Below, piece by piece: positions 4,132 through 24,012 of a stretch of 24,248 bases of DNA. The translations under genes were made by a program, and so were the position numbers. The stretch's first letter is position 1; each line of letters begins with the position of its first letter. The DNA is from a virus, in IMG/VR virus record IMGVR_UViG_3300030111_000016, positions 1-24,248 of that record; one strand, given 5' to 3'. A model generated the notes under the pieces. The model saw only the letters and a list, made by a program, of their open reading frames with translations, was not told where the DNA came from and made no database searches.

Positions 4132-4181
4132 AAAAATCTTGGCGATTATCGCCCCTCGTCGCGTCTGGCAGATTTTGGGGC

Positions 4182-6239
4182 ATGACGAAGCGAACCGCAC
4201 ATCGCAGGGAAGTCGAGACGGACACGCGGGAGGTAACTCCCCTCGCGTTCCGGGCAGAGTTCGATCGACGCTCGATTAACGAGGAAAGCCGGACCGTCGA
4301 GCTGGTCTGGTCGACCGGCGCGCGCGTCCTGCGCCGCAGCTGGATCGACGGTCCCTTCATGGAGGAGCTGTCGCTCGACCCGAAGCACGTCCGTCTGGGG
4401 CGGCTCAACGGTGGTGCACCGCTGCTTGACACGCACAACGACTATACGACCGAGGCCGTGCTCGGCGTTGTCGAAATCGCGCGCGTCGACGGCAAGTCCG
4501 GGACCGCGACGGTGCGCTTCGCGCGCGCCGAGGACAGCGAGGAAGCCGACAAGGTTTTCCGCAAGGTCAAGGACGGGATCCTGCGCAACACCTCCGTCGG
4601 CTACCGTGTCTACAAATTCGAGAAGACAGAGGGTGCCGACGGCAAGGTCCCCGTCATGCGCGCCATCGATTGGGAGCCCTTCGAGATCTCCGTCGTCCCC
4701 GTCGGCGCGGACGACGGTGCCGGGTTCCGAAGCGAAAACACCGAGCGAAACGACTGCGAAATTGTGACCCGAGCTGGGCAAATGGAGAACGATATGGCCA
4801 CGAAAAAGAGCACCGCGGCACCGGAAATTGTCGACCCGGAAAGCACCGAGGAGGTGGCTGTGGTGCCTCCGGCGGCGACGGTCGCGACCGGCTCAGATGA
4901 CGAAGTTCGCAAGGCTGCAGTCGCCGCCGAGCGCACCCGAGGTGCGGGGATCCGCAAAAGTGTCCGTGCCCTGAAGCTGGACGAAAAGCTCGCCGACGAA
5001 CTCATTGCGTCGGACCTCTCGCTGGATCAAGCGCGCGCCCGCATCATCGACGCGGCGGCCGAAAAAGGTGGCGAAGTGGAAATCGACAATAAGGTTCGGG
5101 TCGACGTCAAGACCGACGAATTCGACAAGTATATTCGCGGTGCGAGCGATTGGTTGATCGTCAAGGCCGGTCTTGGCGATCTGGTGCGAACCTATCAGAA
5201 GGACGTCAAGTTGGAGCCTGGCGAGTTTCGCGGGCTCACCTTGTTCGACCTCGCGCGCGAAAGTCTGGAGCGCGCCGGCGTCAAAACGCGCGGCCGCGAC
5301 AAGATGTGGATTGTCGGTGAGGCACTGATTCGCGCGAATGGCATGACGCAGGGGACCGCTGATTTTCCCGTGCTGCTCGAGAACACGATGCACAAGACGC
5401 TCCAGGCGTCTTATATGACCCAGGCAGACACGTGGTCGGCGTGGTGTGGTCGCGGTTCGGTGTCGGATTTCCGCGCCCACAACCGCTATCGGATGGGTTC
5501 GTTCTCGCGCCTCGACAAGGTCGCGGAAAACGGAGAATTTCGGAACAAGTCGATTCCCGATACCGAGAAGGCGTCGGTCCTGATCGACACCTACGGCAAT
5601 ATCATCAACCTTTCGCGCCAGGCGATCATCAATGACGACATGGACGCGTTTTCTCGCCTCGCGCGCATGATTGGACGTGCCGCAAAACTGTCGATCGAAA
5701 TGGACGTCTACGCTCTCTTGTTGCTGAACGGTGGGCTCGGTCCGACGCAAGCCGATTCTCAGCCATTGTTCCATTCAAACCGCGGAAATGTTGGCACCGC
5801 CGCCGCAATCTCGGCGGCCTCGGTTGACGCGGACGCCGCGCTGATGTCGCGCCAGATGGATCCCAGCGGGAACGAGTATCTCGATCTCCAGCCTTCCGTG
5901 CTGCTCGTGGCTCGTGAATTGAAGGGTACAGCCAACACGATCAACGAGGCACAGTACGACCCGGACACGGCCAATAAGCTGCAGAAGCCAAACCAGTCGC
6001 GCGGCCTCTATAGCCGCGTCGTCGCGACTCCGCGCCTCAGCGGGACGCGCCGTTACGCCTTCGCCGACCCGACGGTGGCGCCCGTGATCGAGGTGTCGTT
6101 CCTCGATGGCAACGACACGCCGTTCCTCGATACGCAGGACGGGTGGCGCACGGACGGTGTCGAGATGAAAGTTCGTCTCGACTATGGCGTCGGTGACGTC
6201 GATTACCGCGGCGCGACGACCAACGCGGGGACCCCGTAA
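4182..6239 (+). CDS. Prohead protease / major capsid protein fusion
   Basis: A single 685-aa ORF joins three parts. Residues 20-185 match HK97-type prohead serine proteases, with H85 in LLDTHND, S138 in NTSVGYRV and the strand motif WEPFEISVVPVGAD. Residues 205-300 are highly charged and helical, like a scaffold or delta domain. Residues about 305-685 form the major capsid protein with an HK97-fold pattern close to Mu gpT (LSRQAIINDDMDAFSRL, then IEVSFLDGND and the C-terminal strand VEMKVRLDYGVGDVDYRG). The protease presumably cuts itself and the scaffold from the capsid during maturation. The ATG at 4182 has GGGG only one base upstream, a poor ribosome site, whereas an internal ATG at 4794 has good spacing. 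Such fusions are known in phages, mostly from proteobacteria; the division of product here is inferred. Confidence 0.93.
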   Translation: MTKRTAHRREVETDTREVTPLAFRAEFDRRSINEESRTVELVWSTGARVLRRSWIDGPFMEELSLDPKHVRLGRLNGGAPLLDTHNDYTTEAVLGVVEIARVDGKSGTATVRFARAEDSEEADKVFRKVKDGILRNTSVGYRVYKFEKTEGADGKVPVMRAIDWEPFEISVVPVGADDGAGFRSENTERNDCEIVTRAGQMENDMATKKSTAAPEIVDPESTEEVAVVPPAATVATGSDDEVRKAAVAAERTRGAGIRKSVRALKLDEKLADELIASDLSLDQARARIIDAAAEKGGEVEIDNKVRVDVKTDEFDKYIRGASDWLIVKAGLGDLVRTYQKDVKLEPGEFRGLTLFDLARESLERAGVKTRGRDKMWIVGEALIRANGMTQGTADFPVLLENTMHKTLQASYMTQADTWSAWCGRGSVSDFRAHNRYRMGSFSRLDKVAENGEFRNKSIPDTEKASVLIDTYGNIINLSRQAIINDDMDAFSRLARMIGRAAKLSIEMDVYALLLLNGGLGPTQADSQPLFHSNRGNVGTAAAISAASVDADAALMSRQMDPSGNEYLDLQPSVLLVARELKGTANTINEAQYDPDTANKLQKPNQSRGLYSRVVATPRLSGTRRYAFADPTVAPVIEVSFLDGNDTPFLDTQDGWRTDGVEMKVRLDYGVGDVDYRGATTNAGTP
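4784..4796 (+). promoter_or_regulatory. Candidate internal ribosome site and start for scaffold-capsid product
   Basis: Within the fusion gene, GGAGA (4784-4788) is followed five bases later by an in-frame ATG at 4794 (M205), and another ATG at 4782 overlaps the GGAG. The site lies exactly at the junction between the protease domain and the charged scaffold-like region. Translation from here would give a 481-residue scaffold-capsid protein without protease. Lambda makes its Nu3 scaffold from such an internal start within gene C. The signal is stronger than that of the annotated start at 4182. The use of this start is inferred. Confidence 0.45.
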
Positions 6240-14302: not shown

Positions 14303-14887
14303 ATGACTGATATTGCCTGCTTCTGGAACGGGACAAGCGGCGACCTGTCGGTCCTCAACAACGATCTGCAGACCGATGATGGATTGCGCTCGGAAGTCGT
14401 GCGCGCCTTATTTTCCGACGCGCGGGCCTCTTCTGCGGACCGCCTTCCCGACGGCCAGACGGGTCGCCGCGGGTGGTGGGGCGATGATTTCAACGACGTG
14501 CCGCAGGACAAATATGGATCCAAGCTGTGGTTGCTCGAGCGTGAAAAGCAGACCGAGGAAACGCGCGGCCGCGCTGTCGCCTATGCCGCCGAGGCGCTCG
14601 AACATCTCATTGAGGATGGGGTAACCGACCGCATCGACGTTGAAGCCGAATGGATCGATCGCGGCGTGCTCGCGTTCGCAGTCGATATCTACCGACCCAA
14701 GACGGACATCGTCGAATATCGATTTAACCTGACATGGGCGGCAGAGGACGCGCGTTTTGCGGCGGCAACTACAGTGCGCGGCGTCGTCGATCACATCGAG
14801 CCTGAGAGCTATTCGGTCGTGACCGACGAGGGCGACACAATCGTGACCGACGAAGGCGACACGATTATTTTTGGAGATCCGAGCTGA
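14303..14887 (+). CDS. Mu gp46-like baseplate protein
   Basis: Baseplate wedge component of Mu-like tails, related to T4 gp25. The 194-aa sequence carries the family opening TDIACFWNGTSGDLSVLNND, then GLRSEVVRALFSDARA, the aromatic-rich GRRGWWGDDFNDVPQDKYGS, and LWLLEREKQTEETRGRAVAY. The C-terminus has an extra tail of about 25 residues made largely of two near-identical VTDEGDTI units that ordinary family members lack as far as I know. The start is ATG 14303 with AGGAGA at 14293-14298. The TGA overlaps the next ATG by one base (TGATG at 14885). In Mu the next gene is gp47; here a fibre and an inverted gene intervene. Confidence 0.93.
   Translation: MTDIACFWNGTSGDLSVLNNDLQTDDGLRSEVVRALFSDARASSADRLPDGQTGRRGWWGDDFNDVPQDKYGSKLWLLEREKQTEETRGRAVAYAAEALEHLIEDGVTDRIDVEAEWIDRGVLAFAVDIYRPKTDIVEYRFNLTWAAEDARFAAATTVRGVVDHIEPESYSVVTDEGDTIVTDEGDTIIFGDPS
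14819..14866 (+). repeat. Two 24-base tandem repeats in gp46-like gene
   Basis: GTGACCGACGAGGGCGACAC with four further bases at 14819-14842 is repeated with three substitutions at 14843-14866. The copies encode VTDEGDTI twice at the C-terminus of the gp46-like protein. Confidence 0.9.
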
Positions 14888-17610
14888 TGGCGAATAAGCG
14901 AGTCAAGGACCTGACGCTCGATACGGACCTTGATGGGACCGAGAGCGTATTGCTCGATTCATCGATTGGCACCCGCCGCGTTGCACTCTCATCTCTGATC
15001 GCCGCGGCCAAGGGGGCGCCCGGATCGAAGGGCATTGTGAGCGACACTGCGCCCGACAATGCCCAGGGCGCGAACGGCGACTGGTGGTGGCGCTCATCCG
15101 GCGAGTTTTACATCAAAGAAACCGGCGCCTATGTCTATAAGTTCAAGGTCCTTCTGGCGACGACGGCACCCGATGTGCCTCCACCGGAAGAAATCGACGA
15201 GAGCGACGACGGCACGGTCGTCCCTGATGACGCAGAGTTCATTGTGACGGCATCCGGCGACGATTTCCGTCTTGGTGCTCCGGTCACTGACGATTTCCGC
15301 GTCGTGGTAAATGGCACATCGATTCCATTTCCGTTTGTGGCCGCGAAACTCGAATATTTCCAATCGAACAGTTCCGCGCAGCGTGACGTCTATGCCCTGA
15401 CCAGCGCTGGAGCCTGGTACATTTGGACCGGACTTGGGACAGGATCTGGAGGGCTCGGATTTACACCAACGACCGATCCACATCCTGTCGACGAGGTTGA
15501 ACGCGACCCGACGATCCCAGTCGCCATATTGCCGTCTGGTGCGAAGGTCTATCGCTTCGCGACAGAGCACGCCGCCGCCATGGATCCCTACGTTATCGCG
15601 TCATTCAACGCGTCGAACCCCAATCACGACTACATCAAGGGGCTGGATCAGGTCCTGGCGGAGCTGGGCAAGACGGCCGATGATATTGTGCTGTCGACCC
15701 CGGGCACTCCGGCCGCCCGACTCACGGTCACCGGGACTGACTTTCAGATTGATTTCACGGCCGTGACGCTGACCGACGCCGTCGTCACGCCGTCCAAGGT
15801 CTACGATAAATTCGGCTCGTCGGTCACGGCGAATGCACCGACTTACAGCCTCACCGTCGACATTCCGTCCGGCTACACAAACACTTTGCTTGAGGTTGCG
15901 ATCAGCCTCAAGGATACCGAGAACGTCGTGGCAGATCTGTCCGGTGTCACGTTCGATGGCGTCGAGATGACGCGCATCGTGGCGGCGGATCAGGCCGTCT
16001 ATTCCACCCGGGACCGAACCTCCCGCTGGGTTGCGGTCGCGCCGGCAAGTGGCACCAAGGTCATCGTTGCGACGCCGAATTATGTCAGCGGCGCCAAGAA
16101 GGTGAAGTCAGCGTCGATTTCCGCAGTCATGTTCAAGGACGTGAATCAAGCGGCACCGGTCGGCGCGAATGTCGGACTTCAGGGTGTGCTGACAAACGCC
16201 ATCAATATTCCGATCACCACGCTGCACGTGAATTCGCTGCTCGACGCCCTGGTGATGATTTATTCGCAGAACACGAATCCCGTCACGCCTGGGAACGCCT
16301 CGCCTTTCGCCGATCAGGACGTCGGAAATTTTGACAATCAGCTCGGGCATGGCGTCTGGCGGGCGACCAAGGCCGCCCCGACGGCCGGCGCCACCACGGT
16401 GACCGGGACGATGCAAAACGGATCCGATTCGATCAATGCATCACTACTCGAAATTCGCGGCCTTGGAACGAGCAACACGTTCGATGTGGGTCCTTATGCC
16501 AGCACGAACGCCGGTAATGGTGGCCCCGACATCGCGACCGATGCTGTGCCGGCCGACTGGCCGGTCCCCGATGGCACCGGCCTCGATTCTGGGGGCGACC
16601 CGGATCCCGCGCCGACGCCGTCAACGTTCTGGGCCGGCGTCCTCGAATCCCATGGGTTCAATTCCGATCTGAGCCGCTCGTGGAACGACGCCGAGCTTGC
16701 GGGGTTTCGCGCTCATGCGTCCTCGATGCGCATGTTCGGTTTCGCGCGCCCGGCGCCCTATTCGACCTTCGCAACCGACACGCAGAATATCGATCTCATC
16801 GAGCGCGCGATGGCGAAGGGCTTCCGTGTGATGTATTGCCCGTTCACCTCGACGCCGATCGCGCCAAACACGCCGCTCGCGTCGTTCCCATCGGCAGCGA
16901 ACACGTCGCTCGTCAATTCGATGGGCGCGCGGCTCGCCGAGATTTCGGCTATCGCGTTGTCGCGCGCGTGGTCAACCGATCTTTTTGTGCTTGAGATGTT
17001 TAACGAAGCACTCAGCAGCCTGGGTCAGGCAAACCTGAAGACCGTGATGCAAATCTGGGTGGGGCTCATTCGTGCACAGCACCCGGATCTGTGGCTCGGC
17101 GCGATGGGCAACGGGCGCGAGGGCACCAATGGGTATGAGCCGTATTACAAGGGATGGTTGCGCACCGGGCCGTTGACCGATCCGCGCATGGGCGAGCACA
17201 GAATTGCTTATGGCCATCACCAGTATGACCCGTTCGCCTTCACGCATCAGGGGACCTCCACCGACGGCTCGCGGCCGACCGGCATCCATTATCCGACGTC
17301 CGGGTTTGGGCTGACGCAAATCCGCGCGCAGTATCAGGAATTCCGGGCGTGGGCGAACGCGCAGGCAGTGCAGATCTATTGTGGCGAGACCGGCGCCGCA
17401 CGGTTCGCACCCAGCCTTGCGGAGCGGCTGCAGTACGCCGCTGACGTGTTTCAGGCCGCGCGCGAGAGCGTGATCCCGCAATGGCTATGGTGCGACGACA
17501 CCTCCAACTCAGGACTCGGAAACGCCCATTTCTCGATCATGCAGGGCAGCGCGGGCGCGGCGGTTTTCACGCCAGAATGGGCAGCGAAGCTTGGAGAGCC
17601 CGGAACCTAA
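14887..17610 (+). CDS. Tail fibre/spike with C-terminal GH5-like glycoside hydrolase domain
   Basis: A 907-aa modular protein, probably a receptor-binding fibre with depolymerase activity. Residues 1-60 (VKDLTLDTDLDGTESVLLDS, KGAPGSKG) are typical of tail fibre anchors. About 305-525 is an Ig/beta-sandwich-like domain (SGVTFDGVEMTRI, RWVAVAPASGTKVIV). A Pro/Gly/Asp-rich linker at 550-578 leads to a TIM-barrel-like enzyme domain (about 578-907). This shows GH5-like catalytic features: NEA with E707 as acid/base (VLEMFNEA), the H778-Y780 pair in HHQYDPFAFTHQG, E834 as nucleophile in IYCGETGA, and a late Trp (PQWLWCDD). These suit a clan GH-A retaining beta-glycanase; substrate cannot be read. 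TGATG couples it to gp46. Its stop overlaps the convergent minus gene by four bases. A lysogenic-conversion enzyme is less likely because of the fibre N-terminus. Confidence 0.85.
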   Translation: MANKRVKDLTLDTDLDGTESVLLDSSIGTRRVALSSLIAAAKGAPGSKGIVSDTAPDNAQGANGDWWWRSSGEFYIKETGAYVYKFKVLLATTAPDVPPPEEIDESDDGTVVPDDAEFIVTASGDDFRLGAPVTDDFRVVVNGTSIPFPFVAAKLEYFQSNSSAQRDVYALTSAGAWYIWTGLGTGSGGLGFTPTTDPHPVDEVERDPTIPVAILPSGAKVYRFATEHAAAMDPYVIASFNASNPNHDYIKGLDQVLAELGKTADDIVLSTPGTPAARLTVTGTDFQIDFTAVTLTDAVVTPSKVYDKFGSSVTANAPTYSLTVDIPSGYTNTLLEVAISLKDTENVVADLSGVTFDGVEMTRIVAADQAVYSTRDRTSRWVAVAPASGTKVIVATPNYVSGAKKVKSASISAVMFKDVNQAAPVGANVGLQGVLTNAINIPITTLHVNSLLDALVMIYSQNTNPVTPGNASPFADQDVGNFDNQLGHGVWRATKAAPTAGATTVTGTMQNGSDSINASLLEIRGLGTSNTFDVGPYASTNAGNGGPDIATDAVPADWPVPDGTGLDSGGDPDPAPTPSTFWAGVLESHGFNSDLSRSWNDAELAGFRAHASSMRMFGFARPAPYSTFATDTQNIDLIERAMAKGFRVMYCPFTSTPIAPNTPLASFPSAANTSLVNSMGARLAEISAIALSRAWSTDLFVLEMFNEALSSLGQANLKTVMQIWVGLIRAQHPDLWLGAMGNGREGTNGYEPYYKGWLRTGPLTDPRMGEHRIAYGHHQYDPFAFTHQGTSTDGSRPTGIHYPTSGFGLTQIRAQYQEFRAWANAQAVQIYCGETGAARFAPSLAERLQYAADVFQAARESVIPQWLWCDDTSNSGLGNAHFSIMQGSAGAAVFTPEWAAKLGEPGT

Positions 17611-18308
17611 CGCGCGGTCGCGAGAGCGAGATCCATGGCCCTGGTGAATTCGCGTGCGTAAGTCTGAGACTGGACGCGCGCGGCGACCTCGAAGAATGCA
17701 AACCGGCTCTGGTATGCCGGAGCGCGTGTGAAGATGAACATCATCTTCAGGTTTCTGCTGGTGCCGGGCTGAAAAATGCCGCGCACCCGACCGATCGTTC
17801 CGACAAAGAATTTCCCGGAGCCCTTGCTGTTTTGAGACGCGTCTCGCGAAGACCCGAGGTCTGAAAGGATCCGCTGATAAAGCCCGCGCCGCACGTTGCC
17901 GTAGCTGTCCTTCGGTGCGCCGCGCGCGGGGATCGCGTACTCGTCCCGTCCCAGCACGCCACCATGTCTCAACGCGCCCTCAAATCGCTTGTTGCTGCGG
18001 CTTCCACCACGCACCTGCGGGAGAAGGTATTTCGCGGCTGGCGTTCCCTTGGGTGCAAAGTCCTTGAACCAGACCTCGGCATATTGACGCTGCTTTGTCG
18101 CCGGTCGCAGCATCAGCGAATTCAGCGTGAAGGGTGTCGGCCGGTCGAAGACGCGGCGCATTTCGGAGATTTCCGCATTCTTGATGACCTGTCCGGTGCG
18201 CGTGAGTGCGACGGCGATCGCAAACGGCAGCTGTCTTTGTGTCAGCCTGTCAAGGGCCGTCGTCAGTTCACGACTATCCCATTCGATCCGGACTCCTGCG
18301 CCGTTCAT
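17607..18308 (-). CDS. Conserved phage protein of unknown function, inverted in the late operon
   Basis: The only credible minus-strand gene in the window, 233 aa, ATG at 18308 with GGGGA seven bases upstream. It is real rather than a shadow: the + strand frames opposite it give low-complexity, Arg-rich sequences, while this frame has a balanced composition. Visible blocks are VDRPTPFTLNSLMLRPA-like (residues about 54-70), KYLLPQVRGGSR, YAIPARGAPKDSYGNVRRGL and a C-terminal helix FEVAARVQSQTYAREFTRAMDLALATAR (split here as FFEVAARVQ and TRAMDLALATAR). From memory these resemble small virion-associated or tail-completion-like proteins of proteobacterial phages, but I cannot name a family. It converges on the hydrolase fibre (four-base CTAA overlap) with no terminator between. 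It diverges from gp47, so it needs its own promoter. Confidence 0.75.
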   Translation of the reverse strand: MNGAGVRIEWDSRELTTALDRLTQRQLPFAIAVALTRTGQVIKNAEISEMRRVFDRPTPFTLNSLMLRPATKQRQYAEVWFKDFAPKGTPAAKYLLPQVRGGSRSNKRFEGALRHGGVLGRDEYAIPARGAPKDSYGNVRRGLYQRILSDLGSSRDASQNSKGSGKFFVGTIGRVRGIFQPGTSRNLKMMFIFTRAPAYQSRFAFFEVAARVQSQTYAREFTRAMDLALATAR

Positions 18309-18378
18309 TCCATCGTCCCCGGCGATTACGCGGGCCGTGCCCGGTTTATATGGTTGAGACCATCAGGGAGAGCATCTG
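18309..18378. promoter_or_regulatory. Divergent spacer with AT-rich patch, candidate promoter region
   Basis: This 70-base gap is the only divergent intergenic region in the window. It must hold at least a promoter for the minus-strand gene. An AT-rich patch (GGTTTATATGG at 18343-18353) stands out in GC-rich surroundings. Read on the minus strand it contains TATAAA (18350-18345), a fair -10 box, about 37 bases from the ATG. I see no convincing -35 box. GGGAG at 18366-18370 is the ribosome site for the gp47 GTG on the + strand. Confidence 0.3.
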
Positions 18379-19434
18379 GTGGCATTTCAACGACCCACTT
18401 TAGCGCAAATCGTCGAACGCGTGCAGCAGGACTTCGTGTCTCGCCTGGCGCTCGCCGGCGCGGTCCTGCGCCGCTCCGCGCTCTATGTGTTCGCGCGCGT
18501 GCTCGCCGGCGCAACCCATGGCCTCTACGGGTACATTCAGTGGGTGTCCAGGCAGCTTTTCCCAGATCAGGCCGACGGCGAGTATCTCGTCCGCCACGCA
18601 TCGCTCTATGGGCTGACCCGACTCGCGGCAACATTCGCGACAGGAAATATAACGATCACCGGCACCGACACTGCGGTGATCCCCGCCGGCTCTGTCGTGC
18701 AGCGCGCCGACGAGCTGCAATATGAAACGACCGAGGAAGTGACGATTTCGTCCGGCACGGCGACCGCGGCCGTGATCGCCCGCACCGCTGGCGATGACGG
18801 AAACGCAGATGTTGGCACCGCGCTTAATTTCATTTCGCCGATCGCCGGGGTCAACCCCGGTGCCGAGGTTGCGGCAGGTGGTATCGTCGACGGAGAAGAT
18901 CCCGAGACGGACGATCGCCTTCGGGAGCGTTTGCTTCTGCGCACGCGCAAGCCGCCGCTCGGGGGCGCAGATCATGATTACGAGCGCTGGGCGAGAGAGA
19001 TTGCAGGAGTCACGCGCGTGTGGGTCTACCCGCTCGAGGACGGTCCCGGCACGGTAGGTGTTCGCTTCGTGGTGGACGACGACCCCGACAGCATCATCCC
19101 CGACAGTGGCAAGGTGGCCGAGGTTCAGGCGCTGATCGACTATTATAAACCCGTCACCGCGACCGTCACGGTTTCCGCGCCTGTCGAGGTCGCGCTCGAT
19201 TTTGAGATTGCGCCGGCACCGGACACGACGGCTGTACGCGCGGCGATCGAGGCGCAGTTACGCGATCTGATTCGCCGCGAGGCCGAGCCGGGCGGGACGA
19301 TCCTGCTTTCTCATATCCGGGAGGCAATCTCGCTGGCGACCGGCGAAAATGACTATGTCATGTCGGCTCCGGCGGCCGACGTCGAGAACGATCCGGGCGA
19401 CATTTCCACATTCGGTGAAATCACGTGGACCTGA
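18379..19434 (+). CDS. Baseplate J protein (Mu gp47-like)
   Basis: Wedge component of the baseplate of contractile tails, related to P2 gpJ and T4 gp6. The 351-aa sequence contains the family series: FQRPTLAQIVERVQQDFVSR at the N-terminus, LFPDQADGEYLVRHASLYGL (a hallmark of baseplate J proteins), GTDTAVIPAGSVVQRADELQ, then DRLRERLLLRTRKPPLGGAD and DYERWAREIAGVTRVWVYPL. The C-terminal ends with the usual beta pair (VENDPGDISTFGEITW). Start is GTG 18379 with GGGAG eight bases ahead. In Mu it follows gp46 directly; here it stands 3.5 kb downstream, after the fibre and the minus-strand gene. Confidence 0.95.
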   Translation: MAFQRPTLAQIVERVQQDFVSRLALAGAVLRRSALYVFARVLAGATHGLYGYIQWVSRQLFPDQADGEYLVRHASLYGLTRLAATFATGNITITGTDTAVIPAGSVVQRADELQYETTEEVTISSGTATAAVIARTAGDDGNADVGTALNFISPIAGVNPGAEVAAGGIVDGEDPETDDRLRERLLLRTRKPPLGGADHDYERWAREIAGVTRVWVYPLEDGPGTVGVRFVVDDDPDSIIPDSGKVAEVQALIDYYKPVTATVTVSAPVEVALDFEIAPAPDTTAVRAAIEAQLRDLIRREAEPGGTILLSHIREAISLATGENDYVMSAPAADVENDPGDISTFGEITWT

Positions 19435-19437
19435 CAG

Positions 19438-20139
19438 ATGGCATATGACTTTCCCGACAGCGGCGACAATCGTATTTCAATTTCCAGCGGGATTGCGTCC
19501 GCGCTTCCGCTAACCTTTTCGTGGTGGGTACAACTCAAGAACCACACCGACGGAAAAAGTCACGGCGGCGTGTGCCTTGCTCGGGTCGGCGCCGGATTTG
19601 GCGATTATTATTTCGGATTTGTGTCAAGCGCGGGTGTGGTCACGGCTGTCGCCGCCGCAGGAGGCTCGTCGAGCGCGGCGACAGCCGGCACAATTTCGGA
19701 CGAGAACCCGCATCACTGCCTGACCGAATTTGCAACGACGACCAGCCGGACGGCGGCGTTGGACGGATCGGCCGGCTCACCGGAGACAACCTCGCGCGTT
19801 CCCACCATGACATCTCTTCAAACGAGTGTCGGATGCTTCTTCGGATCGGCAGGGGCCGTGTTCAACGGCCAAAACCACGTTATTTGGGGCGTCGGCGTTT
19901 GGAACACGACGCTATCCTCGCCCGAAAAGGTGGCACTCGCTGCCGGCGAGAGCCCGCTCAAAATCGCCCGCGCGAATTTGATCTGGGCGCCCGATCTCAT
20001 CTCCACACCGTGGGACCCGATCACCGCCGCAAATCTCACTGTATCCGGTGCGGGGCTCGCCGCGACCCCCTCTGGCCTTCGCCTGCCGCGCGTTCGCGGT
20101 GGTCTCATTCGTCCGGGCGGCATTCGTCTGGCCGCATAG
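19438..20139 (+). CDS. LamG/concanavalin-like domain protein, probable virion adhesin
   Basis: A 233-aa protein with the pattern of a single LamG/ConA-like jelly roll: early strands SGIASALPLTFSWWVQLKNH, middle strands GDYYFGFVSSAGVVTAVAAA, the HCLTEFATTTSRTAALDGSAG step, and the signature end VIWGVGVWNTTLSSPEKVAL with the following helix AAGESPLKI. Such folds bind sugars or proteins. Its C-terminus (LPRVRGGLIRPGGIRLAA) is a basic, glycine-rich tail that may anchor it. No signal peptide is present, so export is not expected and a virion role is likely. It starts four bases after the gp47 stop, with no clear ribosome site of its own, so translational reinitiation is plausible. It sits between gp47 and gp48, where Mu has no gene. 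Its function is inferred from fold and place. Confidence 0.7.
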   Translation: MAYDFPDSGDNRISISSGIASALPLTFSWWVQLKNHTDGKSHGGVCLARVGAGFGDYYFGFVSSAGVVTAVAAAGGSSSAATAGTISDENPHHCLTEFATTTSRTAALDGSAGSPETTSRVPTMTSLQTSVGCFFGSAGAVFNGQNHVIWGVGVWNTTLSSPEKVALAAGESPLKIARANLIWAPDLISTPWDPITAANLTVSGAGLAATPSGLRLPRVRGGLIRPGGIRLAA

Positions 20140-20151
20140 GAGTAACCGATC

Positions 20152-20913
20152 ATGAAATATCTCGGCGATATCGTCCCAGGTCAGGTGCTGCGCTTCCTGT
20201 GGGAGACGGCCGGACTTTCCGGTCAGTCGATCACGCGTGCCACCGACGGCACGATTTCCGTCTACAAGGACAACGGCGCCACCCAGACGACAACGGGTGT
20301 GTCAGGCACCGAGGACTTCGACAGCCTTACCGGCATTCATTCCTGCGCCATCGACACCAGTGCCGACGGCACGTTTTATTCTGCCGGTTCTGATTTTGCG
20401 GTGGTCCTTTCCGGCGCCGTGATCGATGGACAGACCGTCAACGCCGTGCTCGCGCATTTCTCGATTGCCAACCGCTCCGCGCTGCGGCCGACCACTGCCG
20501 GCCGCACACTCGACGTGTCGGCCACAGGCGAGGCGGGCATTGACCTGGCGAATGTCGGATCTCCGACGACCGCCCTCAATCTTTCCGGCACAACCATCAA
20601 GGAGGTGACCGACGCGGCGGCGCGCGAGGTCACGATCGCCGGATATCTCGACACTGAGATTGCGTCCATCAAGGCCATTACCGACACGCTCGTGCTTGCA
20701 GATATCGCCGACGCCGTCCTCGACGAGGCCGTTGAGGGTTCCGTGACCTTGCGTGAATCGGTACGCCTTGCGAACGCCGCGCTCGGTGGCAAGGCATCGG
20801 GGCTTGACGGCACCAGTCCTGTATATCGCGATCTCGCTGACACCAAGGACAGACTTTCCGCGACGGTGGATTCGGACGGCAACCGCACGGCTGTAACGCG
20901 GGACCTGACGTGA
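20152..20913 (+). CDS. Phage tail appendage protein (fibre-like), function not defined
   Basis: A 253-aa protein I recognise only as typical of phage tail regions. Residues 1-110 are beta-rich (MKYLGDIVPGQVLRFLWETA, ISVYKDNGATQTTTGVSG, FYSAGSDFAVVLSGAVIDGQ), similar to N-terminal domains of phage structural proteins that carry accessory fibres. Residues 165-250 hold the helical repeat style ADIADAVLDEAVEGSVTLRE and VRLANAALGGKASG, a sequence style recurring in phage fibre and neck proteins. No catalytic motif, signal peptide or membrane segment is seen. AGGAG at 20138-20142 gives a good ribosome site. The stop lies one base before the gp48 ATG region (TGAC ATG). It may form an adapter linking the LamG protein or fibres to the baseplate, which is a guess from order alone. 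Confidence 0.65.
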   Translation: MKYLGDIVPGQVLRFLWETAGLSGQSITRATDGTISVYKDNGATQTTTGVSGTEDFDSLTGIHSCAIDTSADGTFYSAGSDFAVVLSGAVIDGQTVNAVLAHFSIANRSALRPTTAGRTLDVSATGEAGIDLANVGSPTTALNLSGTTIKEVTDAAAREVTIAGYLDTEIASIKAITDTLVLADIADAVLDEAVEGSVTLRESVRLANAALGGKASGLDGTSPVYRDLADTKDRLSATVDSDGNRTAVTRDLT

Positions 20914-21573: not shown

Positions 21574-22806
21574 ATGCATAAGATCGATGGCTCTGGGAAT
21601 GTGAGCGGCCTGTTTACCGAGGGTAATCCAGCCACCGCGCAGCTGGCGACGGCCGTCACGGCCGACTGGCTGAATGCGGTGCAGACCGAGGTGGTGAACG
21701 TGATCGCCGCGGCGGGCCTCGTGCTCAACAAGGCGGACAACACGCAGTTGCGCCAGGCGCTGACCATTCTCAGTCAGGGCCGGCTGAACACTCCGTTCAA
21801 GCCGCGCGCGTCGTCGCCGGCGAATATGCGCATCATTCTCGGTGCCGGCTTCGTGTTTCGGCCTCCGACGCTCTCGCCGATCGGAGAGCAGACGACGCCC
21901 GTGTTCATCGCGCCTGGATCGAATGCACGTATTGACCGCGTGGTCGTCGACATCGCGACCGGAATTCTCGAGGTTGTCGCCGGCGCGGCGTCGGCCTCAC
22001 CATCTCCGCCTGACATCCCGACCGGCAAGCTCCCCATCGCGCAGGTGGTTTTGATCGCCGGGCAGACCAGCATCCTCACCACCGACATTGTTGACGAGCG
22101 CGCGATCTGGGCGCTCGGGCTGGGCCAGGCAGCGTTTGCCAATCTCAACGGAAATGTGGTGATGGTGAATAACAGCCTCGTTGCCAAGGGCGCGATTCCC
22201 ATCGGTGGAGAGATCAGTTATCCATGCGCCGCGCTGCCGGACCCGCTGGACGGCGAAGGCACGTTCCAGTGGTCCGAAGGTGCGGCGCTTTTGCGCTCGG
22301 TCTATCCCGTTTGCTTCTCGCGCATGGGAGTGGTGCACGGCGCCGGGACGACCACGGAGCAGGCTGAGTCGAATTTGTATTTCTGCCTGCCCGATCGGCG
22401 CGGGTATGTCATGCGCGGAGTCGACTTCGAAGCTGGGCGAGATCCAGACAAATCTTCCCGTGAGCAGCAGGCGCCGGGTGGAAACACCGGCAATCTTGTC
22501 GGCTCGGTGCAGGGCGATAGCATGCGCCGGCATCAGCACGAATCCCCGTTCATGGGGACCGATGGTGGGTTTGGCATATTCGGCGCGCGATTCACCGCAT
22601 GGCCTTACGGCTACTCCGGGCGGACAAGGACCGGCAACCGTGTCGGCGACAATGGTGCGTCCGGCCAGTCGCGACAGACGCTGCTCACCAGTCCGCAAAC
22701 GGCAGCGGACGGCACCCTCGACAACCGCGGCGAATTGAACGCCGCGGGCGCCGGCGAGACGCGCATGAAAAACCAATACACGCGCTTTGCGGTGCGTGTT
22801 CTATAG
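21574..22806 (+). CDS. Tail fibre with collar domain
   Basis: Receptor-binding or short tail fibre. The 410-aa product starts with HKIDGSGNVSGLFTEGNPAT and VTADWLNAVQTEVVNVIAAA, a very common N-terminus of fibres that attach to Mu/P2-type baseplates. A beta middle part (IDRVVVDIATGILEVVAGAA) follows, and the C-terminal half is a tail-collar-like domain: ALLRSVYPVCFSRMG, FCLPDRRGYVMRGVD and MRRHQHESPFM. The HxH there is the usual metal-site-like element in collar-type fibre tips. The end (NQYTRFAVRVL) is a typical trimeric terminus. ATG 21574 with GGGAG at 21560-21564 is chosen; an earlier in-frame ATG at 21508 lies inside gp48 and gives an unrelated 22-residue lead. It is the second fibre in the window, distinct from the hydrolase fibre, and no chaperone gene follows it. 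Confidence 0.92.
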   Translation: MHKIDGSGNVSGLFTEGNPATAQLATAVTADWLNAVQTEVVNVIAAAGLVLNKADNTQLRQALTILSQGRLNTPFKPRASSPANMRIILGAGFVFRPPTLSPIGEQTTPVFIAPGSNARIDRVVVDIATGILEVVAGAASASPSPPDIPTGKLPIAQVVLIAGQTSILTTDIVDERAIWALGLGQAAFANLNGNVVMVNNSLVAKGAIPIGGEISYPCAALPDPLDGEGTFQWSEGAALLRSVYPVCFSRMGVVHGAGTTTEQAESNLYFCLPDRRGYVMRGVDFEAGRDPDKSSREQQAPGGNTGNLVGSVQGDSMRRHQHESPFMGTDGGFGIFGARFTAWPYGYSGRTRTGNRVGDNGASGQSRQTLLTSPQTAADGTLDNRGELNAAGAGETRMKNQYTRFAVRVL

Positions 22807-22817
22807 GAGGGATCACG

Positions 22818-23204
22818 ATGGAGTTCGACAAAAGGTCTCTCGCCCGTCTCGCGCAGGTTCATCCCGACTTGCGCCGCGTCATCTTCGAGGCCGCGCACGC
22901 GCCGCCCCTGACGTTCAAGATCACGTCCGGCCTGCGCACCCTCGCCGAGCAGCGAGAGCTCGTCCAGAGCGGCGCCTCGACGACGATGAACTCGCGCCAC
23001 CTCACCGGACACGCGGTCGACGTCGCGATCCTCATCGGCTCCGAGGTCGATTGGACATTCGCGAATTACCGCATCCTGGCGGACCATATCAAGGCGACCG
23101 CGCGCGCGATCTCGCTCCCGATCGAATGGGGCGGCGACTGGAAACGCCCGGTCGACGGGCCTCATTTTCAATTGCCGTGGGGCATTTATCCGGTGACCAC
23201 ATGA
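22818..23204 (+). CDS. Endolysin, M15-type L-Ala-D-Glu / D-Ala carboxypeptidase family
   Basis: Predicted zinc peptidase that cuts peptide cross-links of peptidoglycan at the end of infection. The 128-aa protein has the compact M15 core: VHPDLRRVIFEAA, then KITSGLRTLAEQRELVQSGAS, the zinc motif SRHLTGHAVDVAI (ligands H61 and D68), the catalytic region IEWGGDW (E103/D107) and the third ligand in DGPHFQLPWG (H115). No signal peptide, SAR anchor or cell-wall-binding module is seen, so export should depend on a holin. AGGAGG at 22805-22810 gives one of the strongest ribosome sites in the window and fixes ATG 22818; the longer in-frame lead starting at 22599 is Arg-rich shadow sequence. The stop overlaps the candidate holin ATG (ATGA). 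This cassette order, fibre then lysis, is common. Confidence 0.93.
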   Translation: MEFDKRSLARLAQVHPDLRRVIFEAAHAPPLTFKITSGLRTLAEQRELVQSGASTTMNSRHLTGHAVDVAILIGSEVDWTFANYRILADHIKATARAISLPIEWGGDWKRPVDGPHFQLPWGIYPVTT

Positions 23205-23512
23205 CGGCCTACGCACAGCTCACCGACGTTCCGAGGTGGTCGCCCTGGCGACGCAACGTCGCGATGAGCGTGCTCGCGCTCGGGTTTTGGATGGTGCTGC
23301 GCTCTGGAAATCCACACCTCTCAGAGAGTGTCGCGCTCGAGAGCATGCGGTCTGGCGTCGAGCTTGTGACGCTGACCACGGGCCTCCTCATGGGCGCGGC
23401 GAGCGGCGAACGCATTGCGACGTGGGTGGCACAAATCAGATCAGCGAGGCAGAAAAATGTGGGTGGCAATTTGGACGGCGGCGCGCCGCCTCCTCAAGGC
23501 GGCGGTGAATAA
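23201..23512 (+). CDS. Candidate holin (two membrane segments)
   Basis: A 103-aa protein with two hydrophobic stretches, residues about 19-34 (NVAMSVLALGFWMVLR) and 52-68 (GVELVTLTTGLLMGAAS), flanked by positively charged residues (WRRN; RSARQK) and a flexible Gly/Pro-rich tail. Its place between endolysin and spanin, its size and the two segments fit a class II-like holin, which would open the inner membrane and release the endolysin. I do not recognise a family, so the function rests on context. It begins on ATGA with the endolysin stop, and the i-spanin gene starts inside its last 56 bases, in another frame, with its own GAGG ribosome site. An alternative is a small membrane-bound lysis accessory; no other holin candidate is seen in the cassette. 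Confidence 0.6.
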   Translation: MTAYAQLTDVPRWSPWRRNVAMSVLALGFWMVLRSGNPHLSESVALESMRSGVELVTLTTGLLMGAASGERIATWVAQIRSARQKNVGGNLDGGAPPPQGGGE

Positions 23513-23888
23513 TGTCTGGATCATGGGAGCGATCGGGGCTTGTGTGGTTATCGCTCTTGCTTATGGCATCGGCTTCAGCAAGGCGCGCGGCGCTGCTCGT
23601 CTGGACGCCGAGCGCGCCCGCGCGCAGGCGGCCGAGCAACGGCTCAAGAAATCCGAGGACGATCTGGCCTACGCGCGCCGCCAGATCGAGGATCTGCACC
23701 GCGAGACCGAGAGTGTCCGCGCCGAAACGCGCACCATCGTGGCGGCCTTCCCCGCGCTCGTTAAAGACAATCGCGCTTGTGACGCTGGTGTTGACGTGCT
23801 GCGCCTGCTCGACCAGGCCGGTGGTGTTCTCCCCGTGCCACCCGGACGCGGCGCTCATGGCGCCGCCGCCACCGCTCCAGTGCCTTAG
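23457..23888 (+). CDS. i-spanin (Rz-like)
   Basis: Inner-membrane spanin subunit, which with the lipoprotein subunit fuses inner and outer membranes in the last step of lysis. The 143-aa protein has an N-terminal membrane segment (residues about 19-40, NVWIMGAIGACVVIALAYGI), then a long charged coiled coil (about 43-95, DAERARAQAAEQRLKKSEDD and RRQIEDLHRETESVRAETRT). A single Cys at 108 could allow cross-linking of dimers. The last 20 residues (GGVLPVPPGRGAHGA) are Gly/Pro/Ala-rich. ATG 23457 has GAGG at 23446-23449. It overlaps the candidate holin by 56 bases and encloses the o-spanin reading frame in +1, as in the Rz/Rz1 pair. Confidence 0.8.
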   Translation: MWVAIWTAARRLLKAAVNNVWIMGAIGACVVIALAYGIGFSKARGAARLDAERARAQAAEQRLKKSEDDLAYARRQIEDLHRETESVRAETRTIVAAFPALVKDNRACDAGVDVLRLLDQAGGVLPVPPGRGAHGAAATAPVP

Positions 23889-24012
23889 CTGTAGCGGACC
23901 GAAAAGCCAGACCCGGCAATACGCGGCGTGGGCTGAGGATCGCGAGCAGTACCGCGTTCAGGCGATCCGATTTGAAAAGCTGACCGATTTCATCGACGAA
24001 AGGTGCAAATGA
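23713..24012 (+). CDS. o-spanin (Rz1-like lipoprotein), nested in +1 frame of i-spanin gene
   Basis: In the +1 frame relative to the i-spanin, a lipoprotein signal appears: basic n-region (SAPKRAPSWRPSPRSLK), a hydrophobic run TIALVTLVLTCCAC and a probable lipid-bearing Cys at residue 32 (or 30). The mature part (STRPVVFSPCHPDAALMAPP) is Pro- and Cys-containing like other Rz1-type proteins, followed by a charged helix ending ERCK. Signal, overlap and place fit an outer-membrane o-spanin. The start is uncertain: GTG 23713 gives a 99-aa precursor and is the first start ahead of a proper n-region; the ribosome site (GAGACCGAG) is weak. An ATG at 23857 would give only a 51-aa protein without a signal and is less likely. 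The 3' part extends 124 bases beyond the i-spanin stop. Its TGA overlaps the ATG of the next gene. Confidence 0.65.
   Translation: MSAPKRAPSWRPSPRSLKTIALVTLVLTCCACSTRPVVFSPCHPDAALMAPPPPLQCLSCSGPKSQTRQYAAWAEDREQYRVQAIRFEKLTDFIDERCK

Follow-up and report, generated by a model that had tools for sequence, protein, structure and literature searches.

Genes in which a prohead protease is fused to the major capsid protein (MCP) raise a puzzle of stoichiometry, as a single product would place a protease on each of the hundreds of subunits of the shell. One such gene lies at positions 4182-6239 of the window, by which we mean the whole stretch of viral DNA analysed, 24,248 nucleotides long. We propose, from its sequence and that of its relatives, that it is a nested two-product capsid gene, a reading to which we assign a probability of about 0.88. 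The initial annotation of this DNA had already suggested a prohead protease-MCP fusion of 685 residues, accompanied by a shorter product of 481 residues.

4182-6239, + strand: protease, scaffold and MCP fusion ORF (long product), 685 residues; NF045541, 637.5 bits; phrog_4523, E 2.7e-189

The fusion itself is confirmed. The ORF is present, belongs to the NCBIfam family NF045541 ('prohead protease/major capsid protein fusion protein'; cut-off 525 bits, residues 32-683 matched), and its PHROG match, phrog_4523, is described as 'major head and protease protein'. The architecture of the family, an HK97-fold capsid C-terminus joined to an S78-type protease N-terminus, is that of the window protein, the capsid part being matched by profile and by fold and the protease part by profile; the Peptidase_S78 match, at residues 92-181, is weak (21.9 bits versus a cut-off of 21). 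The protein falls outside the ClpP-like prohead protease/MCP fusion family, NF045540, reaching 417 bits versus a cut-off of 475. As the alignment of this ClpP-type model to the window protein begins at residue 205, the candidate internal start, the border of homology coincides with that start.

The neighbours of the gene form an ordinary myovirus head-tail module, in the order terminase small and large subunits, head-tail adaptor, portal, fusion gene, head decoration, head closure, tail terminator, sheath, tube, tape measure and baseplate. Within the tail/baseplate region, the ORFs at 14887-17610, 17964-18725, 19438-20139, 20152-20913 and 22787-24012 are without any PHROG match, one PHROG-less ORF among these genes being 907 residues long. 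The fused layout is already known, from NF045541 and PHROG 4523; fusions have also been described in MD8-like Pseudomonas phages, where the gene is tripartite (PMC8508860), and in small actinophages, among them those of cluster EE (PMC7302621). What is new is the internal start.

An AlphaFold model, built from a 35-sequence alignment (mean pLDDT 82), divides the protein, together with the domain matches, as follows.

4263-4730, + strand: protease domain, residues 28-183; mostly high confidence in AlphaFold
4731-4889, + strand: linker, residues 184-236, holding the internal start; pLDDT mostly under 50
4896-5066, + strand: helical scaffold region, residues 239-295; AlphaFold model
5316-6224, + strand: HK97-fold MCP core, residues 379-681; Phage_capsid_4, E 3.5e-48

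H85, S138 and E168 of the protease part are invariant in alignments of relatives, and Foldseek matches of the fusion protein are HK97-fold shells, namely HK97, encapsulins, D3 and other capsids. The candidate start, M205 (ATG 4794), sits in the disordered linker, between protease domain and scaffold helices, which agrees with its earlier placement at the protease/scaffold junction.

The start signals of the gene were ranked by adding the energy of the Shine-Dalgarno (SD) duplex with the anti-SD to that needed to open the mRNA, over 38 in-frame ATG, GTG and TTG codons. Plain matching of SD letters was abandoned, because it gave many chance matches in these GC-rich genes, and was replaced by duplex energies and, among relatives, by a choice of methionines blind to the SD.

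4177-4180, + strand: GGGG, one base before ATG 4182, too close for a normal SD; SD -2.6
4782-4784, + strand: alternative in-frame ATG (M201), less likely; weak SD of -3.1, sum 5.2, third of 38
4784-4788, + strand: internal Shine-Dalgarno GGAGA, five bases 5' of ATG 4794; duplex -6.4 kcal/mol
4794-6239, + strand: predicted nested scaffold-MCP from ATG 4794 (M205), 481 residues; conserved internal start
4849-4865, + strand: AGGAGGTG (4849-4856) with GTG 4863; SD-like, -13.1; opening 24.8

ATG 4794, from which 481 codons run to 6236, ranks first, with an opening energy of 6.7 and a sum of 0.3, while the full-length ATG 4182 ranks fourth (opening 10.0 kcal/mol, sum 7.4), about 7 kcal/mol behind. 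The SD at 4794 is similar to that of the next gene, encoding the decoration protein (6282: -6.6). The contrast drawn in the initial annotation, between a poorly spaced GGGG before 4182 and a better placed GGAGA before 4794, is thus borne out by the energies.

Relatives were gathered from viral contigs, genomes, phages and plasmids, including hosts of related prophages, and yielded 119 fused ORFs of the S78 type and 120 of the ClpP type; after clustering at 70% identity, a complete junction was available in 66 S78 and 55 ClpP fusions. The methionine considered was the first after the protease domain, picked without regard to the SD. In S78 fusions (n = 66), 83% of these methionines have an SD of -5 or better, versus 9.6% of 690 other methionines (p 5e-26); the corresponding figures in ClpP fusions (n = 53) are 70% versus 8% of 1029 (p 2e-12). 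An in-frame ATG whose SD is -5.5 or better lies no more than 60 codons from the protease end in 59 of 66 S78 and 44 of 55 ClpP genes, while in the other two frames of the same stretch SD-ATGs occur in just 6 and 2 S78 genes and in 2 and 0 ClpP genes (Fisher tests, 7e-16 and 7e-11). Clustering at 50% leaves an in-frame ATG or GTG with SD in 48 of 51 S78 and 19 of 24 ClpP fusions.

The constraint acts on the RNA, as the SD occurs in each of the three codon phases (3' ends in 17/20/18 S78 and 11/13/13 ClpP cases) and its observed energies beat those of synonymous shuffles (p 2e-7 and 1e-4, respectively). The junction methionine is usually followed by P, T, A or S, as at true N-termini, and the M205 column is nearly invariant, in at least 90% of the 35 aligned sequences, within an otherwise gappy linker. 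Opening energies of junction starts are about 7.6 versus 15 kcal/mol, a difference partly due to selection, the linker methionine with the best SD having been used. Loss of ATG and SD among homologues, which the initial annotation had named as evidence against two products, was not the pattern among the 66 and 55 non-redundant fusions, and their conserved SD-ATG supports its proposal; of the GGAG-ATG that it named for comparison, the ATG preceded by an SD of some form is conserved, but not the exact GGAG. A recognisable internal SD-start is absent in fusions L021, L151, L278, L297, L051 and L047, and weak in L179.

A distant third set, the actinophage fusions, carries a junction SD-ATG in GMA5 (-10.3), Decurro (-5.8), Root (-5.6) and RRH1 (-5.7), and a weaker one in Whytu (-3.9); none was found by the scan in SallySpecial. 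In RRH1, GMA5 and SallySpecial (L307:4439-6424, L308:768-2729, L309:1153-3060) the protease-capsid protein is preceded by a fused segment, hydrophobic and holin-like, some 80 residues long, and SallySpecial has an SD-ATG (M134) between this segment and the protease. In phage Eeyore (H38), what first looked like a nested annotation is an antisense ORF. In the literature searched, no account mentions an internal start within protease-capsid fusions, although earlier publication outside that coverage is possible.

In two viruses the gene is naturally split: in Dulem virus 34 (L081) and MT835543 (L119), protease and scaffold-MCP share one frame, with a single TGA between them that overlaps the SD of the scaffold-MCP start (TGAGGAGG...ATG). 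As the in-frame TGA ends the protease, the capsid protein must start at the junction ATG, unless the stop is read through. Both belong to one clade and are therefore counted as one event; a further candidate split, L296, was not counted, because its junction contains unknown bases and its ORFs overlap.

Proteases also appear to have been exchanged upstream of the junction. In a tree of 125 MCP sequences (a quick LG+G4 search), 12 changes are required to place the S78 and ClpP labels, and well supported branches force at least 9-10 of these; the MCP closest to that of the window by identity (65%, L007) is joined to a ClpP protease. The junction start may be what enables this exchange. We consider it somewhat probable that fusions of the S78, ClpP and actinophage lineages generally follow an as yet unannotated rule, a nested start where protease meets scaffold, and that a self-contained scaffold-MCP unit with a ribosome site of its own allows unrelated upstream proteases to be exchanged repeatedly. 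A third kind of N-terminal module, with an 'EHSARL' motif and no Pfam protease match, forms one protein with the same MCP in L052:1687-4467, and is encoded separately from the MCP in L067 (299-1159 and 1249-2949).

These data can be set against other accounts of the locus. If only the full-length fusion were made, the protease would be present once per shell subunit and would cleave itself off, the conserved methionine being a structural or cleavage motif; the ORF is indeed continuous in nearly all relatives, and databases annotate a single product. A protein motif, however, would hardly account for an SD kept in every codon phase, above synonymous shuffles and in an alignment-poor linker, nor for its association with in-frame ATGs only and with a start-like following residue, and the split phages would need stop readthrough to make capsid from a fusion. 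We regard this account as very unlikely. No more probable is a nested start that is real but placed elsewhere, at ATG 4782, just 12 nucleotides upstream of 4794, or at GTG 4863, behind AGGAGGTG, a motif absent from the initial annotation that pairs very strongly with the anti-SD. The SD of 4782 is weak, and the conserved column is M205; GTG 4863 was rejected, as it lies in strongly folded RNA and has no counterpart in relatives, and with AGGAGGTG it is probably a coding by-product.

Least probable, if by little, is a short product translated from a separate transcript, starting inside the protease region and having 4794 as its first start, by analogy with herpesvirus UL26/UL26.5. Identical proteins would result, and the internal SD would be needed either way; late phage head genes, however, are normally expressed as one operon.

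According to the preferred two-product reading, initiation at ATG 4182 would yield protease-scaffold-MCP, and independent initiation at ATG 4794, via the GGAGA of the linker, a scaffold-MCP corresponding to the gp5 protein of HK97, delta domain included. Long and short forms would co-assemble through their common scaffold and MCP; the protease would thereby enter the prohead at a sub-stoichiometric level, and would then cut the scaffold and itself off the shell. The short product is probably the more abundant: the initiation signals of the window point that way, as do copy numbers in relatives whose genes are unfused, HK97 having 415 MCP and about 60 protease and D3 having 540 and about 90 (PMC12749128). 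Among 18 genes with annotated starts, window included, the median SD is -4.2 for the full-length and -6.6 for the internal start, the internal value used for the window being that of the rejected GTG 4863. The product ratio need not be extreme: in Rhodobacter phages, Paenibacillus Pd_22F, Gifsy-2 and a Paracoccus prophage, the SD of the full-length start roughly equals or exceeds that of the internal start in strength. A conserved nested start, giving two products from one gene, would resolve the stoichiometry puzzle and imply that the family annotation is incomplete in the records examined.

The single-gene layout of the window is shared by MD8 gp5 (PMC8508860), Gifsy-2 (L118) and cluster EE actinophages (PMC7302621); the available portions of the MD8 and actinophage accounts do not mention an internal start. 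In Gifsy-2 the SD scan identifies one, at MPQSI (-8.8).

A close precedent is lambda, whose C and Nu3 are nested in-frame genes (Shaw and Murialdo 1980, cited in PMC8508860). As in the window gene, protease and scaffold share one frame, and an in-frame start with an SD after the protease domain gives, or in the window gene would give, a protease-free product. In lambda, however, the MCP has its own gene (E) and the nested product is scaffold only, whereas the window frame runs on through the MCP; of the fused layout combined with the lambda trick, as initially annotated, the internal SD start is shared with lambda, while the nested product differs from Nu3 in including the MCP. The identical SD scan of lambda gene C (L305:919-2238) finds one strong internal ATG, at codon 309 (-9.7), the annotated Nu3 start, codon 239, having an SD of only -2.7. 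The reference annotation of nu3 may thus be too long; purified Nu3 is probably about as short as the product starting at codon 309.

HK97 resembles the window at the level of products: its genes 4 (protease) and 5 (delta domain-MCP) match the two predicted here, with an HK97-fold capsid in both, but they are separate genes and the protease is not fused to the MCP. The nested start would tie the lambda strategy to that of HK97, mark the point where proteases can be swapped, and extend the lambda trick to a whole class of fused protease-capsid genes.
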